Source: Spirochaetales bacterium (GTDB lineage: Bacteria > Spirochaetota > Spirochaetia > JABEVK01). Taken from it: a DNA stretch of 64,000 nucleotides. Shown piece by piece: positions 8,154 through 32,797 of this stretch. The notes beneath the pieces are model-generated. The model was given only the letters and a program-made list of their open reading frames with translations, made no database searches and was not told where the DNA came from. Each line of letters begins with the position of its first letter. The stretch's first letter is position 1. The stretch is taken from contig CANJXC010000008.1 of assembly GCA_947478845.1 (NCBI GenBank), forward strand, positions 62,001-126,000, in the 5' to 3' direction. Position numbers and translations under genes: made by a program.

Positions 8154-9242
8154 TTATCTAGGGCGCAAGGTTAACTCGACCATGCGGGTGAGAAGCGCTT
8201 TTTTTGAAACTCCTGAGACTTCCCAAGCCCGCACAAACGGCGAGCTCGCATTCAGGCCAGGCATTGTGTTGACTTCGTTCAGGAGCGGACCTCCAGTTCG
8301 GGCGTCCCAGAAAGAATCAACTCGGCAGATTCCCTCCATTTCGAGGGCAAGAAACACGTCTTCGGCAAACCGCTTCATTGTCTTTGTGTCCTCGGGTGAC
8401 AAGCGTGCGGGGATGATGTCTGGCAGCGACTGCGCCCCGTATTTGCTGTCATAGCCAAAGTTTTCGGGAGCGCTGGTGTACTCCACCACCACGGAGGATT
8501 CTATTTGATCCTTATGGCCGATCACTCCGACGGCGTACTCGATTCCGCGGACCTCGGCCTCGATGAGAACCAAGTCGTCGTATTCAAAGGCCTCAACGAG
8601 CGCACGCTGGAGTTCTTTAGGGTCTTTTACCCGGTTGACGCCAATCGAACTTCCGAGCCTGACGGGTTTCACGAACAGAGGGAAGTCTACGTCGTTTTGC
8701 TTTAAGGTGTTCAGGACCTTTTTGTTAAAGGCCTCGGAAGAGTTGTCCCTGCTGCTTCGGGAAACCTCAAGCCCAAACGTGGTTGCTAGACCTCGGTGTC
8801 CGGCCGCTAGCTTAGTTAGAACTTTGTCCATGCCGAGGACTGAGCCGATGAAATTACAGCCCACGTAGGGAATGCCTAAGGTCTCAGCAAGGCCCTGAAA
8901 TCCGCCATCCTCACCCAATCGCCCGTGAAAGACCGGGAAAAGGACATCGGGCCTAGGCGGTTGCTCTGCTTGGGCGGCATCCCGCAGAAGTGCCATCCAG
9001 TCGCCTACCTTGTCACTGTCACGGAACAGCAACACCTGGTTTAACCTAAAGAACTCATCAATGGTCGCCAGCAGGTCTGAAGGTGTTGCGAAGTTTCCAT
9101 CGGGGCGAATGTACTGCGCGGAAACTTCAAAGCGTTCCCGGTCGAGAAAAATCAGGACAAACATAGCCGATTTGAAACTGATCCAATGTTCAGGGCTATT
9201 GCCGCCCATCCATACCGAAACCAGCTTTTTGACCGTGCTCAA
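8154..9242 (-). CDS. ddl: D-alanine--D-alanine ligase
   Basis: 362 residues of ATP-grasp ligase. Shown by VSVWMGGNSPEHWISFKSA (N-terminal loop), DVLFPVFHGRLGEDGGFQG, GIPYVGCNFIGSVLGMDK, the ATP Lys in FVKPVRLGSSIGV, the second ligand block EGICRVDSFW, and the metal triad region LLNEVNTMPGLNASS. It makes D-Ala-D-Ala for peptidoglycan, and the N-terminal substrate loop is slightly atypical. The start is TTG 9242, overlapping the upstream stop as TTGA. It is the last gene of the long leftward operon. Confidence 0.92.
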   Translation of the reverse strand: MSTVKKLVSVWMGGNSPEHWISFKSAMFVLIFLDRERFEVSAQYIRPDGNFATPSDLLATIDEFFRLNQVLLFRDSDKVGDWMALLRDAAQAEQPPRPDVLFPVFHGRLGEDGGFQGLAETLGIPYVGCNFIGSVLGMDKVLTKLAAGHRGLATTFGLEVSRSSRDNSSEAFNKKVLNTLKQNDVDFPLFVKPVRLGSSIGVNRVKDPKELQRALVEAFEYDDLVLIEAEVRGIEYAVGVIGHKDQIESSVVVEYTSAPENFGYDSKYGAQSLPDIIPARLSPEDTKTMKRFAEDVFLALEMEGICRVDSFWDARTGGPLLNEVNTMPGLNASSPFVRAWEVSGVSKKALLTRMVELTLRPR

Positions 9243-9820
9243 ATTGTATCCTTGTAGCGAGTCTTTAAAGTTCGGGAAACGTGAAAGCGTGCCAGCCCAG
9301 CCTCAACTTCGGCTTGAAAAAAGTGTTCTCTTGAGGCTCCGCTTTCTTCGAGCAACTTGAGAAACCCATCACTGGGGATCAACTTCGGCGATACATCAAC
9401 CACGACCCGGGTCTGTGCTTCGCTTGAGTGGGTTGCCACCAGCACCCACCCCGTCAACCGCAGGAAGCGTTGGGAGGCATTCTCGGCCGACTCCTGCACC
9501 GGCTTGTTCTGCCCCGAATGAAGGATATACTGACGAATGTTCGCACTTTCGACAGGTGGCTGAAGGCTGTTTTGCCTCATGGCCCACACAAAACCCTCTG
9601 CCGAGGCGCCCGCATAGGGGAGCCCCAAGAACTCAAGCATACCCTGCACGTGTCCTGTGGACGAGGAGACCAAAGGGAAGACGAAATCCAGACTCAAGCG
9701 TCGCAAATCGTTCAGGCTCGCCAGCTCTTCCACGCGAATCACTGGCCAATTTGCCGCAAAAAGGCCGGGCTCCGCGGCCCGGTCTTTGCTGACAAGAAAG
9801 GCCGGTCGCGCCATGTTCAC
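9239..9820 (-). CDS. truncated Ddl paralogue (no functional ATP-grasp)
   Basis: 193 residues. The segment LDFVFPLVSSSTGHVQGMLE followed by FLGLPYAGASAEGFVWAMRQ aligns with the VFPVFHGRLGEDGG...GIPYVGC...GMDK part of the neighbouring Ddl. The later part resembles a reduced central domain (GWVLVATHSS, then FFQAEVEAG), but the ATP-binding Lys and the whole C-terminal metal/ATP domain are absent. It is therefore not a ligase by itself. It could be a regulatory or structural partner of Ddl. It is coupled on both sides (GTGA with the MFS gene, TTGA with ddl). The start is GTG 9820, with ATG 9814 an alternative. Confidence 0.6.
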   Translation of the reverse strand: MNMARPAFLVSKDRAAEPGLFAANWPVIRVEELASLNDLRRLSLDFVFPLVSSSTGHVQGMLEFLGLPYAGASAEGFVWAMRQNSLQPPVESANIRQYILHSGQNKPVQESAENASQRFLRLTGWVLVATHSSEAQTRVVVDVSPKLIPSDGFLKLLEESGASREHFFQAEVEAGLARFHVSRTLKTRYKDTI

Positions 9821-12285
9821 TTCGGTACTTCTGAGAGTTCAGTTTTGGAGCGAGGCTTCAGATTGGCGCTGAAAAGGCCAAACACCGCGGCACCAGCCGT
9901 GATCACCACCCCAAGAATTGCAGCGCTCTTCAGGTAACCAAAACTCGTCATCATGGTACCAACCAAAACGGGTACAAAGACGGTGAACATTTTTTCCCAA
10001 GTCAGGAAGATAGAGAGGAACTTGGTTTCCCCGTATTTCTCGGAGGCTTTGGTCATCGAAAGGTAAGAACTGATCACTGTGTCGAACAACAATCCGCCGA
10101 TGCCGATAGCCGCTACAACGAAAATCATCGACCAGACCCCGCTTTGGACGAAGAACACCGACAGGAATATGCCTGTCACCAGGTTTCCGAACACAATGAG
10201 GTTCTTTTCATTGCGGGTTCTGTCGGAGTACCTTGCGAGCAGGGGTGAGGCGAGGCTGAAGAGCCCATATATGGTCAGCACGCGGCCGATGTTGGCCTCC
10301 GAAAGACCCGACTCGCTCATAGCCAGTGGAAGGGTGTACTGAAACAGTCCGAAGAAAGCAAGCTGCACGGGAATGGAGGCGAAGAGGAGAGTCACAAGGG
10401 TAGTCCGGTCACGGAAGGGCGCAAAGAGGTCGGTCCACTTGGACTTCACGGCCTCAATGGTTGTGTAAACCGGCGGCCTGTTGGGGTGAAAGAAGAAGAC
10501 GAAAACACCCATTGCCACCGACAACACAGCCGATACCAACAGACCGTTGCGGTAACCTAGATGAGAGACCAGAATACCTCCGAGCACCACGGCGCAGATA
10601 CTGGCGGCAGCAAAACCGGCTCCCCAAGCGGCGAAACCGGAGGTCCGGTGTTCTTTTTCCGTGGTTTGGACCACCAGCCCGGCGCTCGCTGCCAGCACAC
10701 CACCATAGCCGAGGCCAGAAATCAGGCGCATCAGCATCAAAAGAGGCAAAGATTCCGAAAAGGCCGAGAGAAAATTGCCCGCGAGCAACATAGTTCCCGA
10801 CACCAAAAACAGACTCCGGAGGCTGAACCGGTTGGAGAGGGCCCCAATGAGCGGGACAAAAACCACCACACCAAACAGGTGAGCGGAAAACGGTAGGCCT
10901 TTGACAGCGTCGGCACTCAGCGACAGGAAAAGCACAGGAGAACGCGTGTAGAGATCGGAAATGAACAACGGCATGAACGACAGCGGAAGCAGTTCAGCCA
11001 TGAAGAAAAGGAACGCGGTGAACCGGATAATCTTGATCCCCACCTCGTGTTCCGGGACAGTAACTTTAATTTTTCGGTCTGGACGCCTCGAAAGCAGGCC
11101 AAGCGCCAACAGAAACTCGACGCTAAAAATCAAAGAGACCAGGGTCACCGTCAGGGCGTCTAGGAAGCGGTCAACAAGAATGGCATCGAGAAACTTCTGG
11201 TCCACACGACTGAACAGATAGCCCTGCAAAGCTCCATCCGATCCCTTGAGACCTGACCGAAACCATCCGCTGTTAGGAGCGTACTCGATAGTCGGTATCG
11301 TTGGAGGGGTAGTGGCCGCATTTGGGTAGATGCCCGCGCGGTCAGCGCTGTAAAGAACCTTGCCTTTCGTGTCTGTCAGCCAAAGTCCTTCGGTTTCAGG
11401 AGCATCACGAACTTGATCCCCAAGGATGGTTTCCACTTTTTTCCAGTGCTCGGGGGCAATTTGAAGGTCGAGCAATTTAGCCAGGGTTTTGGTCTGCGAC
11501 TCGACCAGCACCTCCACGTTTTTCTGATAGATTTTAACCAGAATCTCTGTGAACCGGCCGTTTGTCGAACCTGCGTAGCCCAGGATGGAAACCAGAAGCA
11601 CGCCCACGATGGCGAAAGAAATACGGGTAACGAGTTTGACGTGAGATGGTTTCTTTTCCGGCAACGGTGACTCCGGAGCGTCTGCTTTTTCCCGGATGAG
11701 CCTGAAAAACAACAATGTAAAAAGAGCCAGAGAAACCAGCAAGAAGACCGAGACGACCAGGAGTCCATACCCCGCTTCCCGCTCCAACTGGGCCCTGATG
11801 CCCTCTCGGCTAAAGCCCAACCAGACAAGCCCCTTGAGTTGCGTCTGGTTGAAGTAAAGCGGTAGCGCCAAGAGGACCTGATCACCCTGAATCACGAACT
11901 TGAAAGCACCGGATTTGTCACCTTTGAGGTTGGGGAAGACGGGGTAGTTCTTGGCCTCTACTTCCGCGAGGTAGTCTTTTCCGTCGACTGCGTATCGGTC
12001 GAGCGTGGGGCTGGTGAGAGCAAGAAAGGTGATTCCTTCGTAGCGAGTTTTCAGATTCGCGAAATCGCGTTCGGTACCACTGAAAAGCGACAGCGGTTTT
12101 CCGAAACCCATCCCACGCTCAAACGAGGTTTGCAAATCTCGGGCCGCGACAAGCTTTTGCGAGATTTCCGCTTGTGTCAGAGCTTTTTCAGTGCTGGCTT
12201 GCACCTGCAGATGGTTGAGAATCTGGGCCATGCCAATGATGACAAGGCCACCAACGAGCAAATAGAGGGGAAGTTTAGGTTTCAT
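9817..12285 (-). CDS. sensor-MFS fusion membrane protein
   Basis: 822 residues in three parts. Residues 1-200 hold one membrane helix, an extracytoplasmic domain of about 145 residues resembling a single Cache sensor, then another helix. Residues 218-390 repeat the plan with a second Cache-like domain between two helices. From about residue 418 there are around twelve hydrophobic segments of an MFS transporter, with an MFS loop pattern at GALSNRFSLRSLF and PLLARYSDRTRN. Either a transporter gated by outside ligands or a receptor using an MFS core as signal domain. It overlaps the binding-protein gene (ATGA) upstream and the truncated ddl downstream. Confidence 0.75.
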   Translation of the reverse strand: MKPKLPLYLLVGGLVIIGMAQILNHLQVQASTEKALTQAEISQKLVAARDLQTSFERGMGFGKPLSLFSGTERDFANLKTRYEGITFLALTSPTLDRYAVDGKDYLAEVEAKNYPVFPNLKGDKSGAFKFVIQGDQVLLALPLYFNQTQLKGLVWLGFSREGIRAQLEREAGYGLLVVSVFLLVSLALFTLLFFRLIREKADAPESPLPEKKPSHVKLVTRISFAIVGVLLVSILGYAGSTNGRFTEILVKIYQKNVEVLVESQTKTLAKLLDLQIAPEHWKKVETILGDQVRDAPETEGLWLTDTKGKVLYSADRAGIYPNAATTPPTIPTIEYAPNSGWFRSGLKGSDGALQGYLFSRVDQKFLDAILVDRFLDALTVTLVSLIFSVEFLLALGLLSRRPDRKIKVTVPEHEVGIKIIRFTAFLFFMAELLPLSFMPLFISDLYTRSPVLFLSLSADAVKGLPFSAHLFGVVVFVPLIGALSNRFSLRSLFLVSGTMLLAGNFLSAFSESLPLLMLMRLISGLGYGGVLAASAGLVVQTTEKEHRTSGFAAWGAGFAAASICAVVLGGILVSHLGYRNGLLVSAVLSVAMGVFVFFFHPNRPPVYTTIEAVKSKWTDLFAPFRDRTTLVTLLFASIPVQLAFFGLFQYTLPLAMSESGLSEANIGRVLTIYGLFSLASPLLARYSDRTRNEKNLIVFGNLVTGIFLSVFFVQSGVWSMIFVVAAIGIGGLLFDTVISSYLSMTKASEKYGETKFLSIFLTWEKMFTVFVPVLVGTMMTSFGYLKSAAILGVVITAGAAVFGLFSANLKPRSKTELSEVPK

Positions 12286-13493
12286 GGGGCCACCTCGCTG
12301 GTAATAGTCGATGCAAAGACGTCGTCGGCACCGAGCACGACGTCAACCGGGATGTCAAAGCCAATGCGCCTAGCTTCGGCAAGGTTCAAGGCAATGTGGG
12401 GCATATGGGCATTCACCTGCGGCAAAGTGTTGGGTGCTACACCCGAGAGAATGCGGGTGAGTTTCTTGGCGCTATAGAGGCCTTCGATAATCTGAACAGT
12501 ATTAGACTCGCCAAGCATCGTTCCCATCTTGACGAAGTCCGGGCCCTCCATGATGAAGGTGGGGATCTTGTACCGTTCCGCAAGGGCCAACACCCGAGCA
12601 AGACTGTTAGAGGTAAGACCAGCCTGAATCGCGAGGTAGATGGCGTCCACCTTGGTGCCCAGTGACCTTACTGCGGCGAGATAGGCCTCTTCAGCCTTGG
12701 GAATGTCCTTCGGGTCCGGCGGGTCTTCCAAGACTTCGGTATTAGGAATCACCTGAAAGCCAAGGTCCTTTGCAGCCTGCTGAACCTTGTCGAGGGCTGC
12801 GTAGGCCCGGCCTGTGTCGGTATCGGTGTAAATCAGACCCAGGCGTTTGAAGCCCACCACACGGTGAAAAAGGCGAATCTGCCGGTCGTAGACATCGGGA
12901 TCGAAGCTGGCAGAAACCAGAGGAGAACCTGAATCTGTAGCACTGACAATGATGCCCGAACCGATGGGGTCAGAAACGCTCTCTACCATCACAGGAACCT
13001 TGACCTGACCGGCTACCACCAACTTCTTGACAAACTTACCGGCGCCCGTTCCTAGCGAAATCACAAGGTCAACGCCCGAAGCATCGCCTAAAAGCGCCTT
13101 CATCGCGGCCGGCGCCTCAACGTCTTCGGTCCAGTTCAAGTCGACGAAGGCTTCGGGAACAAACTCCACAAAGGCCGAGTTACCGCTCCAAGCCTTAAGA
13201 ATGTCGCGGATGAACGGACTTTCCGGATCCGCCGGCTTATCTGGTAACGGTACTTTCTCAGCCCAGCCTAAATCGACCAGACCATCGCGTATACTGATCA
13301 GCACGTCGTTGTAGGCAAAATAGTTTCCGCTTTGGATGACACCAATGCGGAACACCTGGCCACCTTCCTTTTTGAAGGGCTTCACTACGTCTTCCGTCGC
13401 TACCGGTGCGTTAGCGAGTGTTTCGGTCTTAGAGCCAGTACAACCCGCCAAAATCAAAATTGAAATCAAGAGTAACCCAACCAAACTTTTCAT
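12282..13493 (-). CDS. ABC-type substrate-binding lipoprotein (TrpX-like family), orphan
   Basis: 403 residues. A lipobox (LILAGC) after a short hydrophobic stretch predicts lipid anchoring at Cys 17. The rest is a periplasmic-binding fold of the ABC_sub_bind (COG2984) type: FRIGVIQSGNY, DLVISLGTGAGKF, VESVSDPIGSGII, RLGLIYTDTDTGRAYA, DAIYLAIQAGL. Known members bind aromatic amino acids or similar small molecules. No ABC permease or ATPase gene is in the window, so it may feed the coupled sensor-MFS protein or the receptor cyclases. AGGAG stands five bases before the ATG. It overlaps both neighbours by 4 nt. Confidence 0.85.
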   Translation of the reverse strand: MKSLVGLLLISILILAGCTGSKTETLANAPVATEDVVKPFKKEGGQVFRIGVIQSGNYFAYNDVLISIRDGLVDLGWAEKVPLPDKPADPESPFIRDILKAWSGNSAFVEFVPEAFVDLNWTEDVEAPAAMKALLGDASGVDLVISLGTGAGKFVKKLVVAGQVKVPVMVESVSDPIGSGIIVSATDSGSPLVSASFDPDVYDRQIRLFHRVVGFKRLGLIYTDTDTGRAYAALDKVQQAAKDLGFQVIPNTEVLEDPPDPKDIPKAEEAYLAAVRSLGTKVDAIYLAIQAGLTSNSLARVLALAERYKIPTFIMEGPDFVKMGTMLGESNTVQIIEGLYSAKKLTRILSGVAPNTLPQVNAHMPHIALNLAEARRIGFDIPVDVVLGADDVFASTITSEVAP

Positions 13494-14560
13494 ATTGTCT
13501 CCTGTTCAATAACACGCAATTGCAAAAAAGGCGAAAGAAAACTGCGGGCAACGGCCTCGTATCCCGCCTGAAAACTCAAACGGCCTCCAACAGCCGGAAC
13601 CGCAGCGTCGGTGCAGTCCAACACGGTATACTCGTGAGTCTGACCGACGAGGAAGCTTTTCGCGTCCATTGGACGAAGTGCCGACATCGGGGCAAGGTTT
13701 TCACCGCCGTCGAGTACGGCTCTTTGCCTGAGCCCTGTCAGCGTGGAGTGCATTCTCTGTCCAAAGGCATTGAGTCCCACTTCACCCGGGGCTATCTCTC
13801 CTACGGTCTTTTTCCAAACCTCAAGCACCTCTAAATCCAGCGTGAAGACCCCTTCATCAAGTTCCATTATCGGTACACCCTTACTGGTGTTGAAGCCGAA
13901 AAAGGCTGCTTCGCCAAGACGGAACTCGGTAAACTCCGTGGGAAATCCTTGGCGAAGGTTCTCCCAATAGACTGTCCCTCCCACCGAGAGGCCAGGCAGC
14001 TGGACGCCACTTAACTTTCTCACCCGACGCAGGCCGGCTGCGCAGCGTTCCATACTCTCTGAAGTCGGGATGATGCCCGAGAGGCACCCGAGATTGGCTC
14101 CCAAACCCTCCACGGCAATTCCTTTCAAACTGGCCAAATGTTTCACTACTGTCGGCAAGTCGTCCCAAGGGACCCCATCACGCAGGTCACCGGCCTCTAC
14201 CATCACAGAAACTCTCAGCGCAGGCAGGCTGAGGCTCTCACGGGCCTGACCAAGGGCCTCGGCTACTCGGGTGTCCGACAAGAAAACCCGGTCGCAATGG
14301 CGAGCAGTCTCGAGGGCATTGGAAACTTTGGGCCGCAAATGGACCCTTTCGGTGACTGCCTGAGGGAGTCGGGCAAGGTTCACAGCATGGAGATCGGCGA
14401 TCCTCGAAAGGGCCGAGTGGTTAATAAGAGTCAGCAGGTCGGGCCGAGACTGGATAACCTTGGTAACCAGAAGCAAATCCAAGTTTCGAGCTTTGGCAAA
14501 AGCCTGCACGGTGTCGAGGTTCTTGCGGAGTTTACCAACGTGAAAGAGAAGTTCCGCCAA
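13490..14560 (-). CDS. fold-III PLP amino-acid racemase (alanine/ornithine racemase-like)
   Basis: 356 residues of PLP barrel plus C-terminal beta domain. The N-terminal LRKNLDTVQAFAKARNLDLL followed by LVTKVIQSRPDLL carries the Schiff-base Lys. LSVMVEAGDLRDGV, LGANLGCLSG and FRLGEAAFFG follow the pattern of ornithine/alanine racemases of the Orr/YhfX group rather than classical Alr. Substrate is uncertain. The start is TTG 14560, immediately after the TAG of cyclase A1 and in the same frame, with weak GGGGA six bases before. It overlaps the lipoprotein gene by 4 nt. Confidence 0.75.
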   Translation of the reverse strand: MAELLFHVGKLRKNLDTVQAFAKARNLDLLLVTKVIQSRPDLLTLINHSALSRIADLHAVNLARLPQAVTERVHLRPKVSNALETARHCDRVFLSDTRVAEALGQARESLSLPALRVSVMVEAGDLRDGVPWDDLPTVVKHLASLKGIAVEGLGANLGCLSGIIPTSESMERCAAGLRRVRKLSGVQLPGLSVGGTVYWENLRQGFPTEFTEFRLGEAAFFGFNTSKGVPIMELDEGVFTLDLEVLEVWKKTVGEIAPGEVGLNAFGQRMHSTLTGLRQRAVLDGGENLAPMSALRPMDAKSFLVGQTHEYTVLDCTDAAVPAVGGRLSFQAGYEAVARSFLSPFLQLRVIEQETI

Positions 14561-17128
14561 CTAGAGTCCCCACAGCTGGTAGGTGTCATCACCATCCTCG
14601 AAAGCTCCTAACGGTTTGGCGCGCTCCTGCAAACTAGGCTCAAGGGTGGAGTAGACCTCTTGCGTGAACACCATTCCAATTTTGTGATGTTTGGTTTCCG
14701 CCTCGAGCTTGTTGACCAGATCGACTGCCGGCGAGATCACCGTGACTGAAAGACGCTTAGGTTCGCCAACCACGCCGAGGATGAGCTCTTCTCGATGCAC
14801 ACCAACTCCAAAGTTGATCTCAACCTTACCTTGGTCCACACGACGCCGATTGAACTCTTTGAGGGCCTCGCGCATATCCAAGCCGGCTTCGACCGCGTCT
14901 TGAGGCCGACCAGGGAACAGTGCCTGAATGGCGTCACCGATATAGCGGTCGATAAAGCCATTGTGAGCGCGGATGACAGGACCCATAACATTGAAGTATT
15001 CATTGACGAAATCGAAGTTTTCCTTGGGAGACATACCCTCCGAGAGGGTGGTGAACCCACGAATGTCACAGAAGAACACCGTCATATCCGCCTTGACCTG
15101 ATCACCACTTTGCACCTGCGACAGCTCTTCCTTTTGCAAGAAGTCCAAGAATGCCTGGGGCACAAAACGGGCGTTGGCGTCCCTCACTTCGGTCAACCGC
15201 GTGAAGAACTCCTTCAAACGCGTGCTCATCGTATTGAAGTCGGTGGCGAGGTCACCGATTTCATCTCGCCGTCTTGTTTTCACCTTGATACCGAGCTCAC
15301 CGCCCATCAACTGGTGCGAGGCATCTCGGAGGTAGCCCAAGGAAAGGAAAATCAAAATGTCGATGATGGTGAGCAGTACGAGCACGGTCGATACGACGGC
15401 GAGAATGCCGTAAAACATCTCCCCAAGGAAGAGCTGAGTGTTCTCAGTCACGGTGTTGTAGTTGTGATACACCTCAAGAACCCCGGTTATAACTCCCCCT
15501 TGGTCGCGAATAGGAGCCATCGCCGCAAGGTATTGGCCGTATTCGTCGCTATAAAGGGCCGACTCAACCGTACCCCCGCGAGCTGCCGCAAAATGAGCCG
15601 GTTGCGCTCCACCGTAGGGAAACATGACCCCATAATAGGAGGAGGAGTTTTTCACAAAGTAAAATCGACTATTTTCAAACTTGTAGACCACCGCACGCAG
15701 GTCCTTGTCCCACGCATTGGCATTCGAACTGAGAACTTGGTCGTACTGGCGACCCAGGTCCACGTGCGCGGGAGACTGCCAGTCGGAAGCGAGGCGGATT
15801 GTCTCAACCAGCGAACCATCGATCAGGCGCGCACCGAGTTGAGCGGTGAGTTTTAGCTTCGAACGGAGTTCTTTCTGCAAGTTCTGATCCCATACTCCGT
15901 ACACGGCAATCGAACCCACACTTACCGAGAGAATTACTACCGGGAGGTAAATGAGGAACTGCGTGATAATCAGCGAGGTTTTTTTGGCGAACAAGCGACG
16001 CACCAAGCCAATCACCGACCAGGTTGCAAGCAGCAACGCCAGAAGGTCGGCGGTAAGAAAGCAGAGGGTGATGACCAGCTCGAAGACATTTTTATTGCCA
16101 CCGTTCAGCACCTGTAAAGTTCCATCGGGGTCCATGAGGAATACAAGGTTGTTGAACTTGTCAACGATGGCTAAAGTGCCCGAAGGGCCGACCGCAATGG
16201 CTTCGATCGAAGGGGTGTTACGGCCTTTTTTAAGGACTGTTTCTTCCGTGAACAGGGTTTCCAACCGAAGGGAATCGAGTGTATCGGCCCTGTAGACTGC
16301 AGATTGAAGGTTGTCGAGCAGATAAACTTCCCCTCCCGGTCCTGTTTTGATATCCCAGGGTTTTTTGAGTCCGAGTCCGGCGAAAGGAGGGGTAGAAATC
16401 GCGTCTTTCAAGCCCAGAAGGTGAAGTCCACCGGCCCGATCGGCTCCGATGATCCCTTGCGGAAGGTGAATGGCATTGGTCACCAGATCGAGGGCCGCGA
16501 CAGTCGTGAACACCGTTTCATGATCGGCCACGGCAATACTCTTGCCGGATGGCTCGAGGTCGCGCTTGAGGATGAGCAGTTTGCCGTTGGTCTGGTAGGA
16601 GTAGTAAAGGAAACCATCCTTTACTTTGAGACTGCCGATGTGCTGATCGTCGGAGGGAGCTTTGGACTGATCGTAATCTACGTGGACCAAGACCCCGGCG
16701 AAAGCACCACCCGAGGTGAACTTGACTATCTCCTCTGCCTGAAGGCTATCGTCGGGGTTGCGGATGTAGTTGTACGCCAGCACGCCACCATCAGGGATGG
16801 CCGCAAGCCTGTAGGTCTCGTAGAATCCGCCAGATCGCTTGCCGCCGATGACCTGCCATCGCTCTTGGCCGTCGGTTGAGAGGCACACAATTCTCCGTGA
16901 CGCATTGTCGATGACATAAAGGTTGTTTTGGCTGTCGAGATCGGCATAGACGGGGTAATTTAGCAACACGTTGCGGAAAATTTCTCCCGAAAACAGGTCA
17001 TCAGCCGCCGGGCGCCCCCAAACAAGGGCGATAACTAGGAAGACCACGGCTAAGGGAAAAGAAAAACGCAGACCATCTTGGAACAGTCGCAAGTAGGTTT
17101 GAAGTCGAACTAGGGGTTTGGCGTTCAT
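14561..17128 (-). CDS. receptor class III cyclase A1: propeller-Cache-HAMP, C1-like catalytic domain
   Basis: 855 residues. Order: helix about 22-37, beta-propeller with NHL-like repeats 45-345, helices near 350-375 and 390-412, Cache-like domain 415-570, helix 575-600, HAMP 610-655, cyclase 680-850. Both metal ligands are present: D688 in FFCDIRGFTTL and D732 in RYIGDAIQALF. The partner-site residues are changed: R728 for Lys, D803 for the transition-state Asn and K807 for Arg, while T796 is kept. This is the C1-type half of a split active site. Start ATG 17128 has GAGGAA formed over the B1 stop. The upstream open frame overlaps B1 and is rejected. Confidence 0.85.
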   Translation of the reverse strand: MNAKPLVRLQTYLRLFQDGLRFSFPLAVVFLVIALVWGRPAADDLFSGEIFRNVLLNYPVYADLDSQNNLYVIDNASRRIVCLSTDGQERWQVIGGKRSGGFYETYRLAAIPDGGVLAYNYIRNPDDSLQAEEIVKFTSGGAFAGVLVHVDYDQSKAPSDDQHIGSLKVKDGFLYYSYQTNGKLLILKRDLEPSGKSIAVADHETVFTTVAALDLVTNAIHLPQGIIGADRAGGLHLLGLKDAISTPPFAGLGLKKPWDIKTGPGGEVYLLDNLQSAVYRADTLDSLRLETLFTEETVLKKGRNTPSIEAIAVGPSGTLAIVDKFNNLVFLMDPDGTLQVLNGGNKNVFELVITLCFLTADLLALLLATWSVIGLVRRLFAKKTSLIITQFLIYLPVVILSVSVGSIAVYGVWDQNLQKELRSKLKLTAQLGARLIDGSLVETIRLASDWQSPAHVDLGRQYDQVLSSNANAWDKDLRAVVYKFENSRFYFVKNSSSYYGVMFPYGGAQPAHFAAARGGTVESALYSDEYGQYLAAMAPIRDQGGVITGVLEVYHNYNTVTENTQLFLGEMFYGILAVVSTVLVLLTIIDILIFLSLGYLRDASHQLMGGELGIKVKTRRRDEIGDLATDFNTMSTRLKEFFTRLTEVRDANARFVPQAFLDFLQKEELSQVQSGDQVKADMTVFFCDIRGFTTLSEGMSPKENFDFVNEYFNVMGPVIRAHNGFIDRYIGDAIQALFPGRPQDAVEAGLDMREALKEFNRRRVDQGKVEINFGVGVHREELILGVVGEPKRLSVTVISPAVDLVNKLEAETKHHKIGMVFTQEVYSTLEPSLQERAKPLGAFEDGDDTYQLWGL

Positions 17129-17135
17129 TCGTTCC

Positions 17136-19856
17136 TCATTTCTCTGTGATTTTGACCGCTGGAGACCAGGGCTCGGGAAGGCCCTCAGCCAGAAGTTTAC
17201 GGCACCGGTCTGCATGGCGACGTACGACCGGGTCGTGCGGCAAGACAGCGGCCACTGCTTCAAACGCCAACAGCGCATCCTCCACGTTGCCAGCCTCCCA
17301 AAGGCCAAAGGCGGTTTCATAGGAGGGCAGTTGTGCCAAAAGCGGCTTCACCGAGCTTTGCTCGGGGTCAAGGGGTTGGCAGATCAACAGTGGCTCTTTC
17401 TTTCCTTTGACCATCACGTAGTCGAGTTTTCGGAAGGGATTGCGCTGCTTCCAATCGGCCATGTCGTCACCGGCAATCAGTGCAAGGGTAGAAAAAGTAA
17501 CGACACAGGAGACTTCGTAGATTCGCCCGATACCGTTAAGCCGGCTGGTTAGATTCACCGAGTCGGCTATCACCGTACCTTCCATGCGCTCTTCTTCTCC
17601 GACGATGCCCAGCATCAACGGACCATGGTGGATCCCGAAGGTAAACTGAAGGGCTTCGCTGCCCCCGCGTGAACGACGCTCATTGTACCCTTCGAGTTTC
17701 CGGCTTATGGCTCTCCAAGCGGCCAAGGCGTTTCGCGGCTCACCCGGAAACAAGGCCATGTAAGACTCACCCATGTATTTGTCGATCGAACCTTTGTTTT
17801 CACGGATGAGGGGCACGGCGCCCGCCAAATAGCTGTTGAGGAACTTGAACAGACCTTGAGCCGACATCTGGCCCGTGAGTTTGCGGAAGTTCTGCACACT
17901 CGAGAACATGACGGTCATTTCCCGCTTGGTCTGATGGCCGAGCTTTAGTTCCGTCAGGTCGTCTACGCCGAGCAGAGCAATCAAGTCGCTGGGAACAAAC
18001 CGTGCGCTTGCCTCGGTGAGGGCATTAATGTTTTGCATGTAACCGCGCAGACGGCTCGACATGGTCTCGAAATCCCGGCTCAGTTGTCCGGTTTCATCCT
18101 TGTTCTTGAGTGTTTCTGAGAGTTCCAGATTGCCCTTGGCAATTTCCCGGGTCATGCGGCGCAGCGAATTGACCGACCGGAGCAAAACCAGCGTGGCCAT
18201 GACGAACAGGAAGACGATGAATCCACCCATGATAAGAGCAGTATTGAACGCGCTGGTCAGGGAGAGTTTTTCGAGCTCTAGCTGAAGGTCAGCGTACCTA
18301 CCGATTTCTATGACCCCTAAGGGTTTGCCTCTGGCATCGTCGAGCGACGCGAAGGCAGCGTTATACATTCCGTAGTCGTCAGAATAGTTGGTGAAGTACT
18401 TACCGCTGGTGGTGAACAGAGCCTTGGCTCCGTCGGGCAGCAACGTGTAGGGATAGTCAACTCCAAAGGTTCCAGAGTCCGTGTAAACATAATAGGGTAG
18501 CGATCGGATGTTGCGGTAGATGGCCAGGTAATTGTACGCATTGGACTCTGTTCCCGCGATCTGAAGGCTTTTTGCGGCGACTTTGAGCCGTTCATACGCC
18601 TCCGAGGTGAAATCGGAAGGCTGGTTCAATTTCTCGACGGCCTCCGAGGGAATCAATTTGGCCACCAGGTTGGCAGCGTTCATCAGGGTCTTCTGAACTT
18701 GGTCCCGGTAGCGTTCCGACAAGGACGAATTGACCCGTTCGACGGCGATCACTTGGGCGAGAATGATTACAGGTACCAGAAGAAAGAGCTGACTGACCAG
18801 GAGCGGAATCCAGCCCCGCAGAACATAGCGGTAAACGAGAAACAAGACCACCAGAAGGCTGAGCCCCGCGATGCCTAGCGCAATCCAGAAGAGCCACCGA
18901 CCTTGCTTTTCTGATTCTGAGATCAGCGCACCCTCGTAGGCGGTGTATTGGTCTGGCGAGTTGGAAAACAAGAGCCGCTGATTTTCTTTGTCGGCAATGG
19001 CCAGCGACCCATTGGGCGCCAACGTCATGGAGTCGGCAAAAATACTGCCAGTTTTGGAGCCACTCAGAATGCGGGTCATGGAAGAGTTCTCTTCGCGACG
19101 GAAAATAGACCCGTCGAGGAGGTCAAGCACCAGCAGGCGTCCATCGTCCATGAACTTCAAGTCCCACGGTTTGCGAATGCCCTCGAGATTGATCTCGTGC
19201 CAAGCACTGGTTGGTTCAGCTTCCCAGAGACTGCCGTCCCGTGCCGCGCCCACGAGTCTCCCTTCGGCGGTACCAGCAAGAGCAACAAAGTCGCGGACCT
19301 TGGGGAGGGTTCGAAGGACTTCGGGGTTTTTGCCTTCGAGGTCTAAGGCGGTGAGGGTGATCGACACCCCATCGCAATAAAGGGTATAGATCTTGTCTTT
19401 CTGAACGAAGAAGCTGAAATAGCTGGGAAACTCCTCGGTGTCCTGTTCGTTGGGAAGTGTCCATAACGTACTTTCCAGCAGGCCGTTTGAGCCGTAACGC
19501 TGTATCTGTATGGACTCCGCCTTGAACTCGGCTCCGGTCTTGGGAACCCAGTTATACACATAAAGGCGGTCTTTCGAGTCTGTTGCCAGTCCGTGAGCAT
19601 AGTAGAAGTCTTGAGTGCGTTTGCCGCCTTCCTTAATCCATCGAAGGCTTCCATCGTTTTTGAGGGCCACGATGCGGCGCATTCCGGTATCGATCACATA
19701 GGAACTACCAGTCTGATCAACAGCTGTAAGGAACGGAAAATAAAAGGGAACCCTCTGAACAAAGGGCGAAGCCATGAATTTCTGGGCGTTAAACCCGGCA
19801 AACCCTCCCGCAGCGACAAACAGTGCCGAGAAAAATACGAGCAGTATACGATTCAT
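17136..19856 (-). CDS. receptor class III cyclase B1: propeller-Cache-HAMP, C2-like catalytic domain
   Basis: 906 residues with the A1 layout plus a C-terminal TPR-like tail (about 830-906). Signal anchor 4-22, propeller 35-305, helices near 318-345 and 350-372, Cache-like domain to 535, helix 538-562, well-formed HAMP to 610, cyclase about 645-800. The metal Asp are lost: S653 in MFSSVQNF and E697 in KYMGESYMALF. The complementary set is intact: K693, T761, N768 and R772 (TVIADSVNLTSRL). MFSSVQNF resembles the MFASIANF of mammalian C2 domains. It cannot bind the metals alone but could complete A1. It lies 7 nt before A1 in the same operon. Confidence 0.87.
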   Translation of the reverse strand: MNRILLVFFSALFVAAGGFAGFNAQKFMASPFVQRVPFYFPFLTAVDQTGSSYVIDTGMRRIVALKNDGSLRWIKEGGKRTQDFYYAHGLATDSKDRLYVYNWVPKTGAEFKAESIQIQRYGSNGLLESTLWTLPNEQDTEEFPSYFSFFVQKDKIYTLYCDGVSITLTALDLEGKNPEVLRTLPKVRDFVALAGTAEGRLVGAARDGSLWEAEPTSAWHEINLEGIRKPWDLKFMDDGRLLVLDLLDGSIFRREENSSMTRILSGSKTGSIFADSMTLAPNGSLAIADKENQRLLFSNSPDQYTAYEGALISESEKQGRWLFWIALGIAGLSLLVVLFLVYRYVLRGWIPLLVSQLFLLVPVIILAQVIAVERVNSSLSERYRDQVQKTLMNAANLVAKLIPSEAVEKLNQPSDFTSEAYERLKVAAKSLQIAGTESNAYNYLAIYRNIRSLPYYVYTDSGTFGVDYPYTLLPDGAKALFTTSGKYFTNYSDDYGMYNAAFASLDDARGKPLGVIEIGRYADLQLELEKLSLTSAFNTALIMGGFIVFLFVMATLVLLRSVNSLRRMTREIAKGNLELSETLKNKDETGQLSRDFETMSSRLRGYMQNINALTEASARFVPSDLIALLGVDDLTELKLGHQTKREMTVMFSSVQNFRKLTGQMSAQGLFKFLNSYLAGAVPLIRENKGSIDKYMGESYMALFPGEPRNALAAWRAISRKLEGYNERRSRGGSEALQFTFGIHHGPLMLGIVGEEERMEGTVIADSVNLTSRLNGIGRIYEVSCVVTFSTLALIAGDDMADWKQRNPFRKLDYVMVKGKKEPLLICQPLDPEQSSVKPLLAQLPSYETAFGLWEAGNVEDALLAFEAVAAVLPHDPVVRRHADRCRKLLAEGLPEPWSPAVKITEK

Positions 19857-19954: not shown

Positions 19955-22474
19955 TTACAGCCCATACAACCGCATACCTATCCCGAGGTTCTCGCTTTCA
20001 GCCAACTTGGAGGCTCGGGCCCGTAAGCCCGGTGCTTGCGCCTTCCAGACGGGTTCGGTCATCGCCATTTCCACATGATAGGTCCCCGTGGCCGTCTCGA
20101 CCTGGTTCACGAGCTCAAACGCATCAGAAAGGAGGTTAACGGCAAGCCGGTTAGGCTCTCCCACCACGCCGATCAGGACCTCCTGTTGGTGAACTCCCAT
20201 GCCAAAGGCAACAGCAACCCCACCTGTGGCCACGCGCTCGCGGTTGAAACCTACGAAAGTTTCGCTCATTTCGAGGCCGGCCTTTACGGCATCGCTGGGC
20301 TGGCTGGGAAAGACCGCCAGGATAGCTTCGCTGCGATAGTGCTGTATGAATCCGCCGTGGCGGCGGATCACCGGGCCCATAACGGCCAGGTAGGAATTGA
20401 CGAAGCTTAGGGTTTCCTCAGGGGTCATGCTCTCTGTAAGCGAACTGAAACTGCGCAGTTTGATCACCAAGAGGGTTACTTTCTGCTGAAACCGGTCGCC
20501 ACTTTCAAGCTCTGCCAGACTTTCTTTGCCCAAGTAGACCGTCAACTCAGGCGACACAAACCTTGTGTTTCTGTCCCTAATTTCCTTGAGCCGGCCCAAA
20601 TGATTGATCATTCGTGAACTCAGGGTGACAGATTCTCGTGCCAGGTTGGCGATGTCATCTTCTTCACGAGTACTGTCGGAGGTTCTCTGAAAAAAACCAA
20701 GCGTCAGGAAGAGAAGTAGATCACTTGTGATCAGGAGTAAAAGCACCAAGAGAACCGAATAAACTGAGCCCCTGAACAGGTTGTCATTGTAGACACTGAA
20801 CATCTCACGTGAGGAATTGTCGGGGAGGTACACCTCGAGGACCCCCGTCACCTCTCCCGAAAGTCCTTTAAGCGGTGCCAGAGCGCTGAGGTAGGCACCA
20901 TACTCGCCGAAGTACCGGGTGAACTGCACCTGTGCGCCGCGGGCAGTTGCATAATGCGCCCGGGTGGCCCCGCTGAAGGGATACATCACCCCAAGTGACG
21001 GGACAGAACACGCACTAAAAAACTCATCGCTCCAGTACTTGTGCACCACCGCATGAACGGATTGTTTCCAGGAGTTCGTGCTGCCGTTAACAAGGTCGTG
21101 GATCTGTTGCTCGAGTTTCCTATAAGCAGAAGATTCCAAGTCAGATGCCTTGCCAAGCTCCGCGGCCAGACTGCCGTCGACTGTCTGACTACCCATTGTG
21201 GCTAAGAACATCAGCCTAGCTTGTAGCTCCTTCTGATAACGGTCCTCAATTAACTGGAAGATGCTGACCGAGCCAATAGAGGAACTAATGACAACCAGGG
21301 GCAACAACAGAGCCACCTGCTTGACGACGATGGAGATGCCAGTAGACAGGAATCGCCTGAGCATGCCGACCGTCGACCAGAGAACCAAAACGAAGGAACA
21401 AGCGCCAACCACCACCCAAAGGAGGTCGGTGAACTGCTCGAAGTCCGCCTTCGGTGAGCCTTCGAAAACAAGGATCTTGCCGTCCGCTTGTTGAAGGAAC
21501 ACAGCATTGTTGCCCTTGTCGACGATGCCTAGAGTCCCTGAGGCCGAGATGGCAATGCTCGCGAAAGTCGGCTTCTTGCGACCTGAGTTTAACACCTCTG
21601 CCTGCCCAAACACTTGTTCTAGGGTAGCCGACGTCAACGCCGGGGCCTTCCAGACTGACCGGCCCAACACATCGAGGACATACAAGCTGCCGTCGGCTCC
21701 AGCTTTGATGTCCCACGGTTTTTGCATCTGTTTGTTCCACGCAAACCGAGGCTCTGTGACAGTTCCGGTCTCGGCCAGCACACAGACCATTCCGGATCGC
21801 TCGCACATCACCAGGCCTTCAGGCAGATGAAGGACCCCGGTCACGTAGTCGAGGTTAGGGGGAAGTGCCGCTGAGAACACGATTTTGTGTTCGTTTGTGT
21901 CCTTGCTTCCACCTACGGCAATGGGACGCTCACGCACGAGGAGCCGTCCGTGCTCCTGGAAAAGGTAACGAAGCGAGTTGCCTATCACCACGAAAGCGCC
22001 GATGTGCCCCCCCTCGCGTTGGTCTTTAACAGACGTCGAATGCACCAAAGTCCCTTCCAAGGATCCCGAGGAGTTGTAGGAAAGGATTTCCTCGGCTTCC
22101 AAGCTCCCGTCTATGTGATCCCTGAGGGCGTTGTACACCAACACTCCGCCTTCGGGTCGAGCGACCACCCGGTCAGACTCGTAGAATCCGTTGGTTCTTT
22201 TGCCGCCAACGAGAGACCAGCGTTCCTTTCCCGAGGGAGTGAAACTCAAGATCCTCCTCGAGTTGTCGTCGATGACGTAAAGGTTCTCCTGAAGGTCAAA
22301 CTCTAGTGCTGTCGGGTAGTGGAGCGTTCGCGGAGTGTTCAAGCGGCCCTGTAGAGCGTCGGAAACCGGTCCCACAGCGAACCCAAGTGAAAGAAAAGCT
22401 GTGATCACCGCCAAAGGCAGAACCACAAAAAGACCATCTCTGAATCGGAAAATGAACTTTAAAAAACCCCTCAT
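19955..22474 (-). CDS. receptor pseudo-cyclase A2: propeller-Cache, inactive catalytic domain
   Basis: 839 residues, a paralogue of A1 with the same propeller, four membrane helices and Cache-like domain. The HAMP region is eroded (only its second half is recognisable). The cyclase fold is retained but all key residues are altered: K672 and E716 replace the metal Asp, H712 the substrate Lys, N780 the adenine-contact Thr, E787 the Asn and Q791 the Arg. No catalysis is expected. It may act as receptor, dimer partner or nucleotide-binding regulator. Start ATG 22474 overlaps the B2 stop (ATGA). A 98-nt gap separates its stop from B1. Confidence 0.83.
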   Translation of the reverse strand: MRGFLKFIFRFRDGLFVVLPLAVITAFLSLGFAVGPVSDALQGRLNTPRTLHYPTALEFDLQENLYVIDDNSRRILSFTPSGKERWSLVGGKRTNGFYESDRVVARPEGGVLVYNALRDHIDGSLEAEEILSYNSSGSLEGTLVHSTSVKDQREGGHIGAFVVIGNSLRYLFQEHGRLLVRERPIAVGGSKDTNEHKIVFSAALPPNLDYVTGVLHLPEGLVMCERSGMVCVLAETGTVTEPRFAWNKQMQKPWDIKAGADGSLYVLDVLGRSVWKAPALTSATLEQVFGQAEVLNSGRKKPTFASIAISASGTLGIVDKGNNAVFLQQADGKILVFEGSPKADFEQFTDLLWVVVGACSFVLVLWSTVGMLRRFLSTGISIVVKQVALLLPLVVISSSIGSVSIFQLIEDRYQKELQARLMFLATMGSQTVDGSLAAELGKASDLESSAYRKLEQQIHDLVNGSTNSWKQSVHAVVHKYWSDEFFSACSVPSLGVMYPFSGATRAHYATARGAQVQFTRYFGEYGAYLSALAPLKGLSGEVTGVLEVYLPDNSSREMFSVYNDNLFRGSVYSVLLVLLLLITSDLLLFLTLGFFQRTSDSTREEDDIANLARESVTLSSRMINHLGRLKEIRDRNTRFVSPELTVYLGKESLAELESGDRFQQKVTLLVIKLRSFSSLTESMTPEETLSFVNSYLAVMGPVIRRHGGFIQHYRSEAILAVFPSQPSDAVKAGLEMSETFVGFNRERVATGGVAVAFGMGVHQQEVLIGVVGEPNRLAVNLLSDAFELVNQVETATGTYHVEMAMTEPVWKAQAPGLRARASKLAESENLGIGMRLYGL

Positions 22475-25158
22475 GGCTTGCTCTCGATTTGGGGGTAGGG
22501 CAGGGCAGCGTCCCACTGGTTTTGAGTTGGGTTTTCAAGGAAACTGCGGCATCGGCGGGCATGGTTGCGCACGACAGCATCGTGAGGATCCCTTGACCCC
22601 AAGAACTCAAATCCTTCCAAGGCAGCCCTGAGATCACCCTTTTCGAAGGCGTCAAAGGCGTGGGCGTAGGTGGGAAGGTGATCCAACAGCGTGGAGTTGC
22701 CTCGGTCTAGCTCATCGAGAGGCTCACAGATGGGAACTCGCTCTTGGTTATGTCCCAATACCACAACTCCGAGGTTTCTGATCGGGAAGTTCCGAACTTG
22801 GTCCAAAGTTTCAGAGCTGGCCACGCAGGGAACCTCGTAGTGGAGGCATAGACGGTTGAGAATGTGAGCTAGGTTGACCTCTGCGGAGATGACCGCTGTT
22901 TCCAATCGTTGTGTCTCACCGATGATCCCGAGCATCATCGGTCCCTTGTGGAGCCCGAAGGTGACCGGAACCGCTTTTTTTTTGAAGCGGGACGGTTGGC
23001 GATTGGCCATGCGGCGGCTGATGAGGGTGAAGGCTTCCAGGGCATCCTCGGGCGTCCGTGGAAACAGGGCCCGATAGGATTCACCCAAGTATTTTTCAAT
23101 AAAGCCGCGGCTTTCCCGGATCAGCGGCGCCACCGAGTCAAAATACCCATTGAGATGACGGAAGGCACCCTGACTCGAAAGGTGGCCGTTGAACTTGCCC
23201 AAATCGACAAGTGTGCTGAACATCACAGTCATCTCGCGCTGCGACAGGTCGCCAAGTTTCGGTGCCGAAGCGTGCCTAAGCTCCAGCAGGTCGATAAAAT
23301 CTCTGGGCACAAAACGGGCACTGGCCGTCGTGAGAGCTATGTTTTCCGTTAGCTTTAGTTTGTGGGTGTGAGTCAGGGAGCCAAAACCGCGCATCAACCG
23401 CAGAACCTCGTCGCGGCCTTTCAGTTCCACCGGAAGTTCCTGATGGCCCAAAAGGATCTCTCGGGCGATGCGCCGGAGAATGTTCAGGGAGCGCACCAGC
23501 AAGAGCGAAACAAGGAACAGGATGAAGAAAAAAACGCCTCCACTGAGCGTCGCGAACAGCCGTGCGCCCGCGAAGTAGGAGTTTTCGACATCTTTCACCA
23601 AGTCGGTGAACAGGCCCACCTCCACGACTCCTGCGGTTTTACCAGTGGCGGTGGAAATGCTGGAAAAGCCTCCTGCATAGTTACCGTAGTCGTCAGAATA
23701 ATCGGCGTTTATCGCCCCGGGGATTGTAAACAGCCCTTGTGCCTTGTCAGGATAAAGGGGGTAGGGGTAAGACACCCCGAAGGTACCAGATCCTGTGAGC
23801 ACGATTTGCGCTCTCGAACTCAAGTTGCGATAAAGCGCGATGTACGAGAAAGCGCTGGTCTGCCTGCCAATGGTCCGAATGGCAAGTGCGGCCTTGTTCA
23901 GTCGCCGATAGGCCTCAGAATCGAGGTCTTTCGGTTCATCAAGTGCCTCCAAATCCTCGGGGCTGAGGGTCTTGGCAACCAGTTGGGCCGCGTTGAGTAA
24001 AGTACTGTGAACTTCGTCGCTGTAACGGCTGTAAAGGCCCTCAAAAACCTGGTTGATTGTGACCGCTTGGGCCAGGACAAGAATGGGTACAAACAAAGTG
24101 ACCTGTAAGACCACAAGCGGGACGCGACGCTTGAGAACAGCAAGCCAGAAGTTCAACAGAAACACCAACAAGGCCAAGCTACCGATTACTACAGCTACCC
24201 ACGTGAACCAGTGGGCAAAGACTGTTGGGGCGTTGAAGAATGCGCCGTCCTGGAACGAATACTGACCGGCAAACGGGGTCAAGATAAGCCGCTGGCGTTC
24301 CTTGTCGGCAATAAGAAGTGTCCCATTGGAAGCCACTGAAAAGGTGTCGGCTAAAGTTCCCTGTGTCATACGACTGTCCAGAACTATCGTCTGTTTTCCG
24401 TCCAGTCCCCGTTTCATAATGGATCCCTTCACCAGGTCGAGGATGAGAAGGCTTCCGTCGGGATGGTATTTCAGGGCCCACGGTTTGACAATTCCTTGAG
24501 CGGAAGCGGGCTTCCAGTCGTCCCCCGGTACCGCCTTCCAGAGGGTACCGTTTCTGGCAGCTCCCGACAGGGTCCCGTCCGGCTGACTGACAATAGAAAC
24601 GAAGTCTATGGTGGAAGCGACCGACCTCAGCAGTTTGGGCGTTCCGCCGGTAACAGGTAAGGCAAATAGGTCGTATTTGATCCCGTCACCATGAACGACG
24701 TAGATTGTATCATTCTGGATACTGAACGATAGGTAGTTAGGAAAGGCATCGGATTGGGCCGTGTTTTCGAGCCGGAAGACGGTCGACAGAAACTTGCCAT
24801 CGACGCTGTAGCGTTGAACTTGCATTTCCTGTGCCACCCAATCTTGCCCTGAGGCCGGCAACCAGTTGAGGAGGTAAAGGTTGCCTTCGCTGTCGAGCTC
24901 CAAGCTCACAGCGTTGTAAAACCCCTCTGAACGCTTGAGGCCGTCCAGGGCCCAACGCAGACTACCATCCCGTTCAAGAGCAACCAGCCTCCCCATGGCA
25001 GAATCGGAGGTGTAGGTGCGTCCCGAGGGGTCAATTGCTGTAGCGAACGGAAACCTCAGCGCCAACCGGTCTCGCCAAGGTTCGGCCTTCAAATCTTCGG
25101 CATGGTAGAAAACCCAAGTGCCACAGAGCAGGAAGAGAACCCCAAAAGCCACCGACAA
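22471..25158 (-). CDS. receptor pseudo-cyclase B2: propeller-Cache, degenerate catalytic domain
   Basis: 895 residues, a paralogue of B1 including the C-terminal TPR-like tail. The metal positions are T649 and E693. K689 and N762 remain, but the Arg position is I766 and the Thr position A755, so neither half-site is complete. The HAMP is weak. The propeller segment (ATAIDPSGRTYTSDSAMGRL) and Cache-like region are well kept, so ligand sensing is probably under selection. The only start near the family N-terminus is TTG 25158, 35 nt after the upstream stop, without a clear ribosome-binding site. It overlaps A2 by 4 nt. Confidence 0.82.
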   Translation of the reverse strand: MSVAFGVLFLLCGTWVFYHAEDLKAEPWRDRLALRFPFATAIDPSGRTYTSDSAMGRLVALERDGSLRWALDGLKRSEGFYNAVSLELDSEGNLYLLNWLPASGQDWVAQEMQVQRYSVDGKFLSTVFRLENTAQSDAFPNYLSFSIQNDTIYVVHGDGIKYDLFALPVTGGTPKLLRSVASTIDFVSIVSQPDGTLSGAARNGTLWKAVPGDDWKPASAQGIVKPWALKYHPDGSLLILDLVKGSIMKRGLDGKQTIVLDSRMTQGTLADTFSVASNGTLLIADKERQRLILTPFAGQYSFQDGAFFNAPTVFAHWFTWVAVVIGSLALLVFLLNFWLAVLKRRVPLVVLQVTLFVPILVLAQAVTINQVFEGLYSRYSDEVHSTLLNAAQLVAKTLSPEDLEALDEPKDLDSEAYRRLNKAALAIRTIGRQTSAFSYIALYRNLSSRAQIVLTGSGTFGVSYPYPLYPDKAQGLFTIPGAINADYSDDYGNYAGGFSSISTATGKTAGVVEVGLFTDLVKDVENSYFAGARLFATLSGGVFFFILFLVSLLLVRSLNILRRIAREILLGHQELPVELKGRDEVLRLMRGFGSLTHTHKLKLTENIALTTASARFVPRDFIDLLELRHASAPKLGDLSQREMTVMFSTLVDLGKFNGHLSSQGAFRHLNGYFDSVAPLIRESRGFIEKYLGESYRALFPRTPEDALEAFTLISRRMANRQPSRFKKKAVPVTFGLHKGPMMLGIIGETQRLETAVISAEVNLAHILNRLCLHYEVPCVASSETLDQVRNFPIRNLGVVVLGHNQERVPICEPLDELDRGNSTLLDHLPTYAHAFDAFEKGDLRAALEGFEFLGSRDPHDAVVRNHARRCRSFLENPTQNQWDAALPYPQIESKP

Positions 25159-32790: not shown

Positions 32791-32797
32791 GGTTACC

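Follow-up and report, generated by a model that had tools for sequence, protein, structure and literature searches.

Gene arrangement at the cyclase locus

The window, by which we mean the whole 64,000-nucleotide stretch of spirochaete DNA that was analysed, carries on its minus strand four consecutive genes for receptor cyclases in the order B2, A2, B1, A1 (Table 1). The open reading frames at 14561-17320 and 17136-19856 (both minus strand), which correspond to A1 and B1, are real and intact. The 919-residue frame listed for A1 begins within B1 and overlaps it. We assign the start of A1 to the ATG at 17128, which is located 7 nt past the B1 stop and is preceded by GAGGAAC, and consider it likely that the A1 protein has 855 residues rather than the 919 of the longer frame. 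In the upstream pair, the B2 stop and the A2 ATG at 22474 share nucleotides (ATGA). Dead at almost every catalytic position, these paralogues, B2 and A2 (25158-19955), had not been mentioned in the earlier note, and this is corrected here.

An assembly artefact was considered and rejected: the four ORFs are intact, the contig has a length of 146 kb, the genome is 99.75% complete, and the division of catalytic residues described below recurs in another genome. The genome encodes the flagellar filament outer layer protein FlaA (E = 8.6e-86), which none of 14 control genomes has, and this identifies the organism as a spirochaete. A promoter scan returned fewer matches than in shuffled sequence and was discarded. 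Elsewhere in the window (32747-35071), a 774-residue protein has a polysaccharide deacetylase match that is confined to residues 570-630, the remainder being without a Pfam match.

Table 1. Features of the cyclase locus and of the genes that follow it, in window coordinates.
Feature	Position	Strand	Remarks
A1, metal-donor (C1-like) receptor cyclase	14561..17128	-	855 aa
A1 domain layout			TM1 ~19-37; NHL six-bladed propeller ~45-345; TM2 ~351-369; TM3 ~391-409; Cache-like domain (possible) ~413-572; TM4 ~575-593; HAMP; class III cyclase domain ~680-830
A1 metal-site segment MTVFFCDIRGFT	15050..15085	-	residues 682-693, includes D688
B1, partner (C2-like) receptor cyclase	17136..19856	-	906 aa; architecture as A1
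B1 VKGK motif	17400..17411	-	residues 816-819; absent from A1
B1 purine/transition-state segment	17541..17576	-	T761 to R772, includes N768
A2, paralogue of A1	19955..22474	-	39-40% identity to A1
B2, paralogue of B1	22471..25158	-	42% identity to B1
PLP-dependent Ala_racemase_N protein	13490..14560	-	next gene after A1; neighbour conserved in G280 and G445
ABC_sub_bind (PF04392) substrate-binding protein	12282..13493	-	neighbour conserved in G280 and G445
MFS transporter with N-terminal membrane/sensor-like extension	9817..12285	-	homologue at same position in G445
D-Ala-D-Ala ligase-like ATP-grasp protein	8154..9242	-	neighbour conserved in G445

Receptor architecture

Hydropathy analysis indicates four transmembrane segments that enclose two external parts. 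The class III cyclase domain (PF00211, Guanylate_cyc) scores 47 bits in A1 and 48.5 bits in B1 (cut-off 21.9), and a HAMP domain (PF00672) is found between the last transmembrane segment and the cyclase domain, with 33.9 and 33.4 bits, respectively. NHL repeats are scored by Pfam above the cut-off in B1 and slightly under it in A1. Foldseek searches with a low-confidence AlphaFold model of A1 retrieved NHL propellers (the best being Brat/TRIM NHL domains, TRIM71) and the cyclase Cya2. The AlphaFold models from the window paralogues are mediocre (mean pLDDT 61 and 57), and that of A1 is adequate for naming the propeller and cyclase folds but not for a judgement on the active site.

The propeller and the Cache-like domain that the earlier note had proposed for both chains fared differently. 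The propeller held, being supported by the NHL repeats and by Foldseek. The Cache-like domain remains putative and rests solely on topology and predicted secondary structure. With this reservation, A1 and B1 have what is expected of a HAMP-linked periplasmic receptor, namely the placement of HAMP, the transmembrane regions, the propeller and, by secondary structure, the Cache-like part.

Division of the catalytic residues between A1 and B1

We denote the catalytic residues as the two metal-binding Asp followed, after a slash, by Lys, the purine-binding Thr, Asn and Arg. A1 reads DD/RTDK (D688, D732; R728, T796, D803, K807) and B1 reads SE/KTNR (S653, E697; K693, T761, N768, R772). The two paralogues read KE/HNEQ (A2) and TE/KANI (B2). 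Among the 16 ordered combinations of A1, B1, A2 and B2, a complete site is obtained solely when A1 supplies the metal half and B1 the partner half, and A2 and B2 are incomplete in every combination tried among these four. For five losses placed at random among the ten catalytic positions of the two chains, the chance that all hit one or the other composite site is 2/252. A homodimeric-type enzyme would have the full residue set in one chain, which is the case neither for A1 nor for B1. A heterodimeric, C1/C2-like enzyme would have exactly one complete composite site, which is the case for A1 plus B1.

The alignment columns stayed the same with 18 full-length relatives, with an enlarged set of about 30 and with the solved bacterial cyclases 1wc0/1wc1 and CyaB (3r5g), and none of these alignments recovered the missing residues elsewhere in the deficient chain. 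With the A1 start at 17128, every residue number and identity claimed for A1 and B1 by the earlier note was confirmed. Its claims that only the A1-metal/B1-partner site is complete, and that the reverse site is dead, also held and are here extended to all four paralogues; the refuting outcome, an alignment in which the deficient chain has its Asp or Asn/Arg intact at another position, did not occur. The dead site is not fully stripped, as A1 retains Thr796 and the B1 orthologue in genome G280 (see below) retains the second Asp.

A purine-binding pair of Lys with Thr or Asp marks adenylate rather than guanylate cyclases. The pair predicted to select ATP (K693 and T761) is confirmed, and we consider it likely that A1 and B1 together convert ATP to cAMP; the substrate has not been measured and is suggested merely by these residues.

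Single-copy relatives and an orthologous pair

Searches with A1, with its receptor half and with an A-type profile covered about 620 different genomes from the same class and phylum and yielded 25 single-copy receptor cyclases that are full length or nearly so. They have the receptor architecture of A1 and B1, and all 25 are complete (DD/K, T or S, N, R). As the single-copy loci are complete, the split chains derive from a homodimer-type ancestor. A further search of the contigs of named genomes with a profile from the A1+A2 alignment found no A-type relatives and only two generic cyclases; this is a weak result, as just two peptide patterns served for the search and the window's own or near-identical records were possibly excluded.

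Beyond the window's genome, an A/B pair was found only in G280 among the approximately 620 genomes searched. G280 belongs to a different family, and its B and A genes are adjacent and in the same order as in the window. The B frame has 937 residues, 49% identity to B1 and reads TD/KTNR; the A frame has 923 residues, 48% identity to A1 and reads DD/RTDR. Thus, A and B occur together in both genomes that possess them. The earlier note would have been refuted by loci where the two do not co-occur, and this check was passed, as G280, the sole other genome with A, has B adjacent in the same order and with the same split. The evidence for A/B pairs is nevertheless limited to two genomes, a small number.

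The catalytic domain is the best-conserved part of both chains (65% between A1 and its G280 orthologue, 64% for B1), with only 45% and 42% for the propellers. This is the opposite of the pattern of a decaying pseudo-enzyme. The partition extends to the wider set of conserved positions. It is clear in the metal half, where the A-chains keep 17 and 15 of 19 such positions and the B-chains 11 and 12 of 19. It is only modest in the purine half, where 15 and 18 of 22 are kept by the B-chains and 14 of 22 by each of the A-chains. For A/B, dN/dS was left out, the orthologues being only 49% identical.

In the phylogenetic tree, A1, A2 and the G280 A-chain form one clade and B1, B2 and the G280 B-chain another, each with 100/100 support. 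A1 and A2 cluster apart from the G280 A-chain. Therefore, with both clades supported, the A/B split predates the duplication that led to A1B1 and A2B2. The branches of A2 and B2 (1.04 and 0.89) are about twice as long as those of A1 and B1 (0.50 and 0.54), whose rate matches that of the G280 chains. The faster evolution of A2 and B2 fits a loss of catalytic constraint. These two proteins (19955-25158), with intact ORFs and dead cyclase domains, are possibly non-catalytic regulators or receptors.

Gene neighbourhood in related genomes

In G445, one complete cyclase is followed by the same succession of racemase-like, ABC_sub_bind, MFS and D-Ala-D-Ala-ligase-like genes that follows A1 (27-41% identity). 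Downstream of the B-A pair of G280 come a gene for a 952-residue cyclic-nucleotide-binding protein and then the racemase and ABC_sub_bind genes. The succession from a single gene in G445 to a pair in G280 and a duplicated pair in the window can be read as a record of how the heterodimer could have originated. The block of four genes beside the cyclase (window 8154-14560; locus L121 1157-7140) is an observation in its own right, and hints that amino acids or cell-wall precursors may be sensed or handled here.

The 952-residue protein directly downstream of A in G280 (L082 2207-5065) has two cNMP-binding stretches and weak matches to TLC transporters and cupins. It is conceivable that it is an effector of the A/B pair. 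Several proteins of the window's genome match its cNMP-binding part, but a full-length match was not found there. Such a neighbour supports the idea that the product of the pair is a cyclic nucleotide.

Genes in which a receptor of the same propeller/Cache type is fused to an apparent MFS transporter adjoin single-copy cyclases at L043 4607-7588, L044 5860-8865, L045 10262-13435, L046 11327-14446, L125 4060-7047, L126 3125-6172, L129 10178-13261, L131 9987-13028 and L132 9605-12577. Many spirochaete genomes have such a fusion paired with a receptor cyclase. The neighbouring MFS-receptor was rejected as a candidate partner of the cyclases, as its output part is a transporter and cannot complete an active site.

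A second family of divided-site pairs

A second pair of adjacent cyclases, which we call type 2, is encoded on contig 2 of the window's genome (G000; L048 5921-9212). The chains have 515 and 577 residues and read DD/KTEL and HD/KTNR. Homologous adjacent pairs were found in eight more genomes from two other families, which gives nine genomes in total (L048, L142, L143, L144, L151, L152, L153, L154, L155). In all nine, both Asp are intact in the first chain, where E/G/A/T/S stands in place of Asn and L/E/G in place of Arg; in the second chain, Lys, Thr, Asn and Arg are intact and His occupies the position of the first Asp. The single-chain homologues examined are all complete (14 of 14). In a tree which took in ten of these, first chains, second chains and single chains form one clade each (98/96, 99/93 and 98/92), and first and second chains branch in closely congruent ways. 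Within a pair, the genes overlap or are at most 10 nt apart, and comparison of two close genomes gives dN/dS values of about 0.04 and 0.05. NHL, Cache and HAMP parts were not detected in type-2 chains, and the gene order is the reverse of that of A/B, with the metal donor first. The pair is unrelated to A/B and represents a separate origin. In the dead site of type 2, the metal chain retains Lys and the partner chain the second Asp, and it is possible that this site still binds something.

The Lys of the VKGK motif of mammalian C2 contacts phosphates, and C1 lacks the motif. VKGK in B1, which we take to be the counterpart of this phosphate-binding Lys, is an independent residue that was not part of the claim in the earlier note. 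It is present in B1, in its G280 orthologue and in all nine type-2 partner chains (one of which reads VQGK), and absent from A1, A2, the G280 A-chain and all nine type-2 metal chains. The C-terminal tail is kept in B1 and is missing in A1 and in the type-2 metal chains. In both systems the motif thus segregates as C2 versus C1 predicts. We regard this as supporting rather than decisive because some single-copy type-1 chains also carry a variant of the motif.

It might be argued that A1 and B1 are both pseudo-cyclases which serve for dimerisation or ligand-dependent scaffolding, their complementarity being coincidental. In favour of this, the ORFs of A2 and B2, which belong to the same operon, are intact even though nearly all their catalytic positions are dead. 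However, G280 retains the split at 48-49% identity, the catalytic domain is the most conserved part, the true pseudo-pair A2/B2 evolves about twice as fast, VKGK segregates too, and the same partition arose independently in type 2. We therefore consider this alternative improbable.

A second alternative is that one chain is active alone with altered chemistry, for example A1 as a homodimer that uses Arg728, Asp803 and Lys807, so that the pair represents two diverged enzymes. A role of R728 and D803 is possible, as both are conserved between A1 and the G280 A-chain. However, A1 and every type-2 first chain lack both of the transition-state residues Asn and Arg, whose replacements vary freely in type 2, and this alternative can practically be dismissed.

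Thirdly, A1 and B1 could each pair, instead or additionally, with another cyclase of the cell, such as a complete single one, as a regulatory subunit. The window's genome codes for 12 class III cyclase domains above the Pfam cut-off, several of them complete, and a complete chain could in principle fill either half. However, A1 and B1 are adjacent, tightly coupled, equal in sensor architecture and conserved together in G280. Moreover, the degenerate chains of this genome (A1, B1, A2, B2 and the contig-2 pair) all occur in adjacent pairs, and the remaining chains that were read are complete or keep both Asp, Asn and Arg. We consider such other partners highly improbable.

A model for the A1/B1 pair

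We consider it likely that A1 and B1 together make up a membrane-bound class III nucleotide cyclase, an obligate heterodimer of two dissimilar chains. This reading has sequence support because the losses are complementary, the split is kept in the orthologous pair and the single homologues are complete. The physical heterodimer, its joint activity, the inactivity of the single chains, the substrate and the sensing of two ligands are inferred; to this extent the claim of an obligate heterodimer in the earlier note is supported.

In this model, the ancestor would be a homodimeric receptor cyclase encoded by a single gene and having two equal sites, from which tandem duplication and complementary loss led to the pair. 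A1 and B1 would dimerise via their HAMP and catalytic domains, and the latter would meet head to tail and form one working site, to which A1 would contribute the two metal Asp and B1 Lys693, Thr761, Asn768, Arg772 and the VKGK Lys. ATP would be converted to cAMP at this site, and the mirror-image site would be dead and either idle or regulatory. Each chain has its own periplasmic NHL propeller and putative Cache-like domain, so that two different inputs may be integrated in one enzyme. The proposal of a two-input coincidence detector therefore held in part: each chain has its own sensors, but it has not been demonstrated that A1 and B1 sense different ligands, which is no more than possible, and the wording exceeds the data. 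Two further cautions apply. A2 and B2 have lost catalysis entirely, so the receptor family can persist without it, and the complete single-copy relatives make homodimers the norm in the A/B receptor family.

A bolder reading is that spirochaetes have evolved two-gene class III cyclases with a divided site at least twice, once as the A/B receptors and once as an alpha/beta pair without propeller, Cache and HAMP. They would have repeated the C1/C2 route of animals, with A/B as a two-input enzyme and a second site that could bind a regulator. The losses are shared: Asn, one further partner residue, the Lys of VKGK and the C-terminal tail are gone from the metal-donor chain, and the partner chain lacks the first metal Asp. 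By analogy, the retained second site of A/B could possibly bind a regulator as the mammalian enzymes bind forskolin. We consider this reading fairly likely.

If it is true, there are two independent bacterial cases beside living homodimer-type relatives (with G445 even in the same gene neighbourhood), and the transition from homodimer to obligate heterodimer becomes directly testable, including which loss came first, whether the idle site turned regulatory and what benefit two unlike sensors provide. A/B would also represent a natural two-chain (AND-gate-like) cAMP receptor for engineering.

Comparison with known systems

According to a review, bacterial class III adenylate cyclases homodimerise, and the step to unlike halves is placed in early eukaryotes (PMC9552081). 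A heterodimeric class III cyclase from bacteria was not found in the open-access literature searched; subscription papers and preprints were outside the scope, and absence is unproven. The claim of the earlier note that no bacterial counterpart has been described thus held for the literature searched, yet a second example is present in the same genome.

The closest parallel are the C1/C2 domains of mammalian transmembrane adenylyl cyclases (C1 of AC V and C2 of AC II; PDB 1CJK, 1AZS). There, too, one complete composite site is accompanied by a degenerate mirror site; the C1-like chain supplies the metal Asp, and the C2-like chain supplies Lys, the purine residue, Asn, Arg and the VKGK Lys. In a comparison with entries for isolated catalytic domains, A1 finds type V C1 but not type II C2, and B1 finds type II C2 and the beta-1 chain of soluble guanylate cyclase (sGC); among whole mammalian chains, C1 is the best stretch for both. 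A1/B1 differ in being two genes and receptors instead of one polypeptide, in having Thr instead of Asp as the purine residue, in their periplasmic sensors (propeller and putative Cache-like domain instead of bundles of six transmembrane segments) and, according to the tree, in their independent origin within a spirochaete family.

Metazoan sGC alpha1/beta1 is also encoded by two genes with key residues split between the subunits; its homodimers are inactive through this division, the metal Asp are on alpha, and the pseudosymmetric site lacks key residues (PMC3591389). In contrast to A1/B1, it is a eukaryotic cytosolic NO receptor that makes cGMP and has no periplasmic sensors. The chytrid rhodopsin cyclases RGC1/NeoR resemble the proposed A1/B1 enzyme in that two full receptors that differ in their sensors pair obligately, but RGC1 and RGC2 retain all catalytic residues, and obligate pairing is not due to a divided site there (PMC8815786). 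The bacterial homodimeric class III cyclases (Rv1625c/Cya, CyaB, the 1wc0 cyclase and the single-copy NHL-Cache-HAMP cyclases) share the catalytic fold and the dimer logic with A1/B1, but each of their chains is complete and the two sites are equal. The type-2 pair resembles A/B in its adjacent genes, its exactly complementary losses and the confinement of VKGK and C-terminal tail to the partner chain, and it differs in the sensor parts, which were not found, in the reversed gene order, in the replacement of the first Asp by His in all nine partner chains and in its separate origin.
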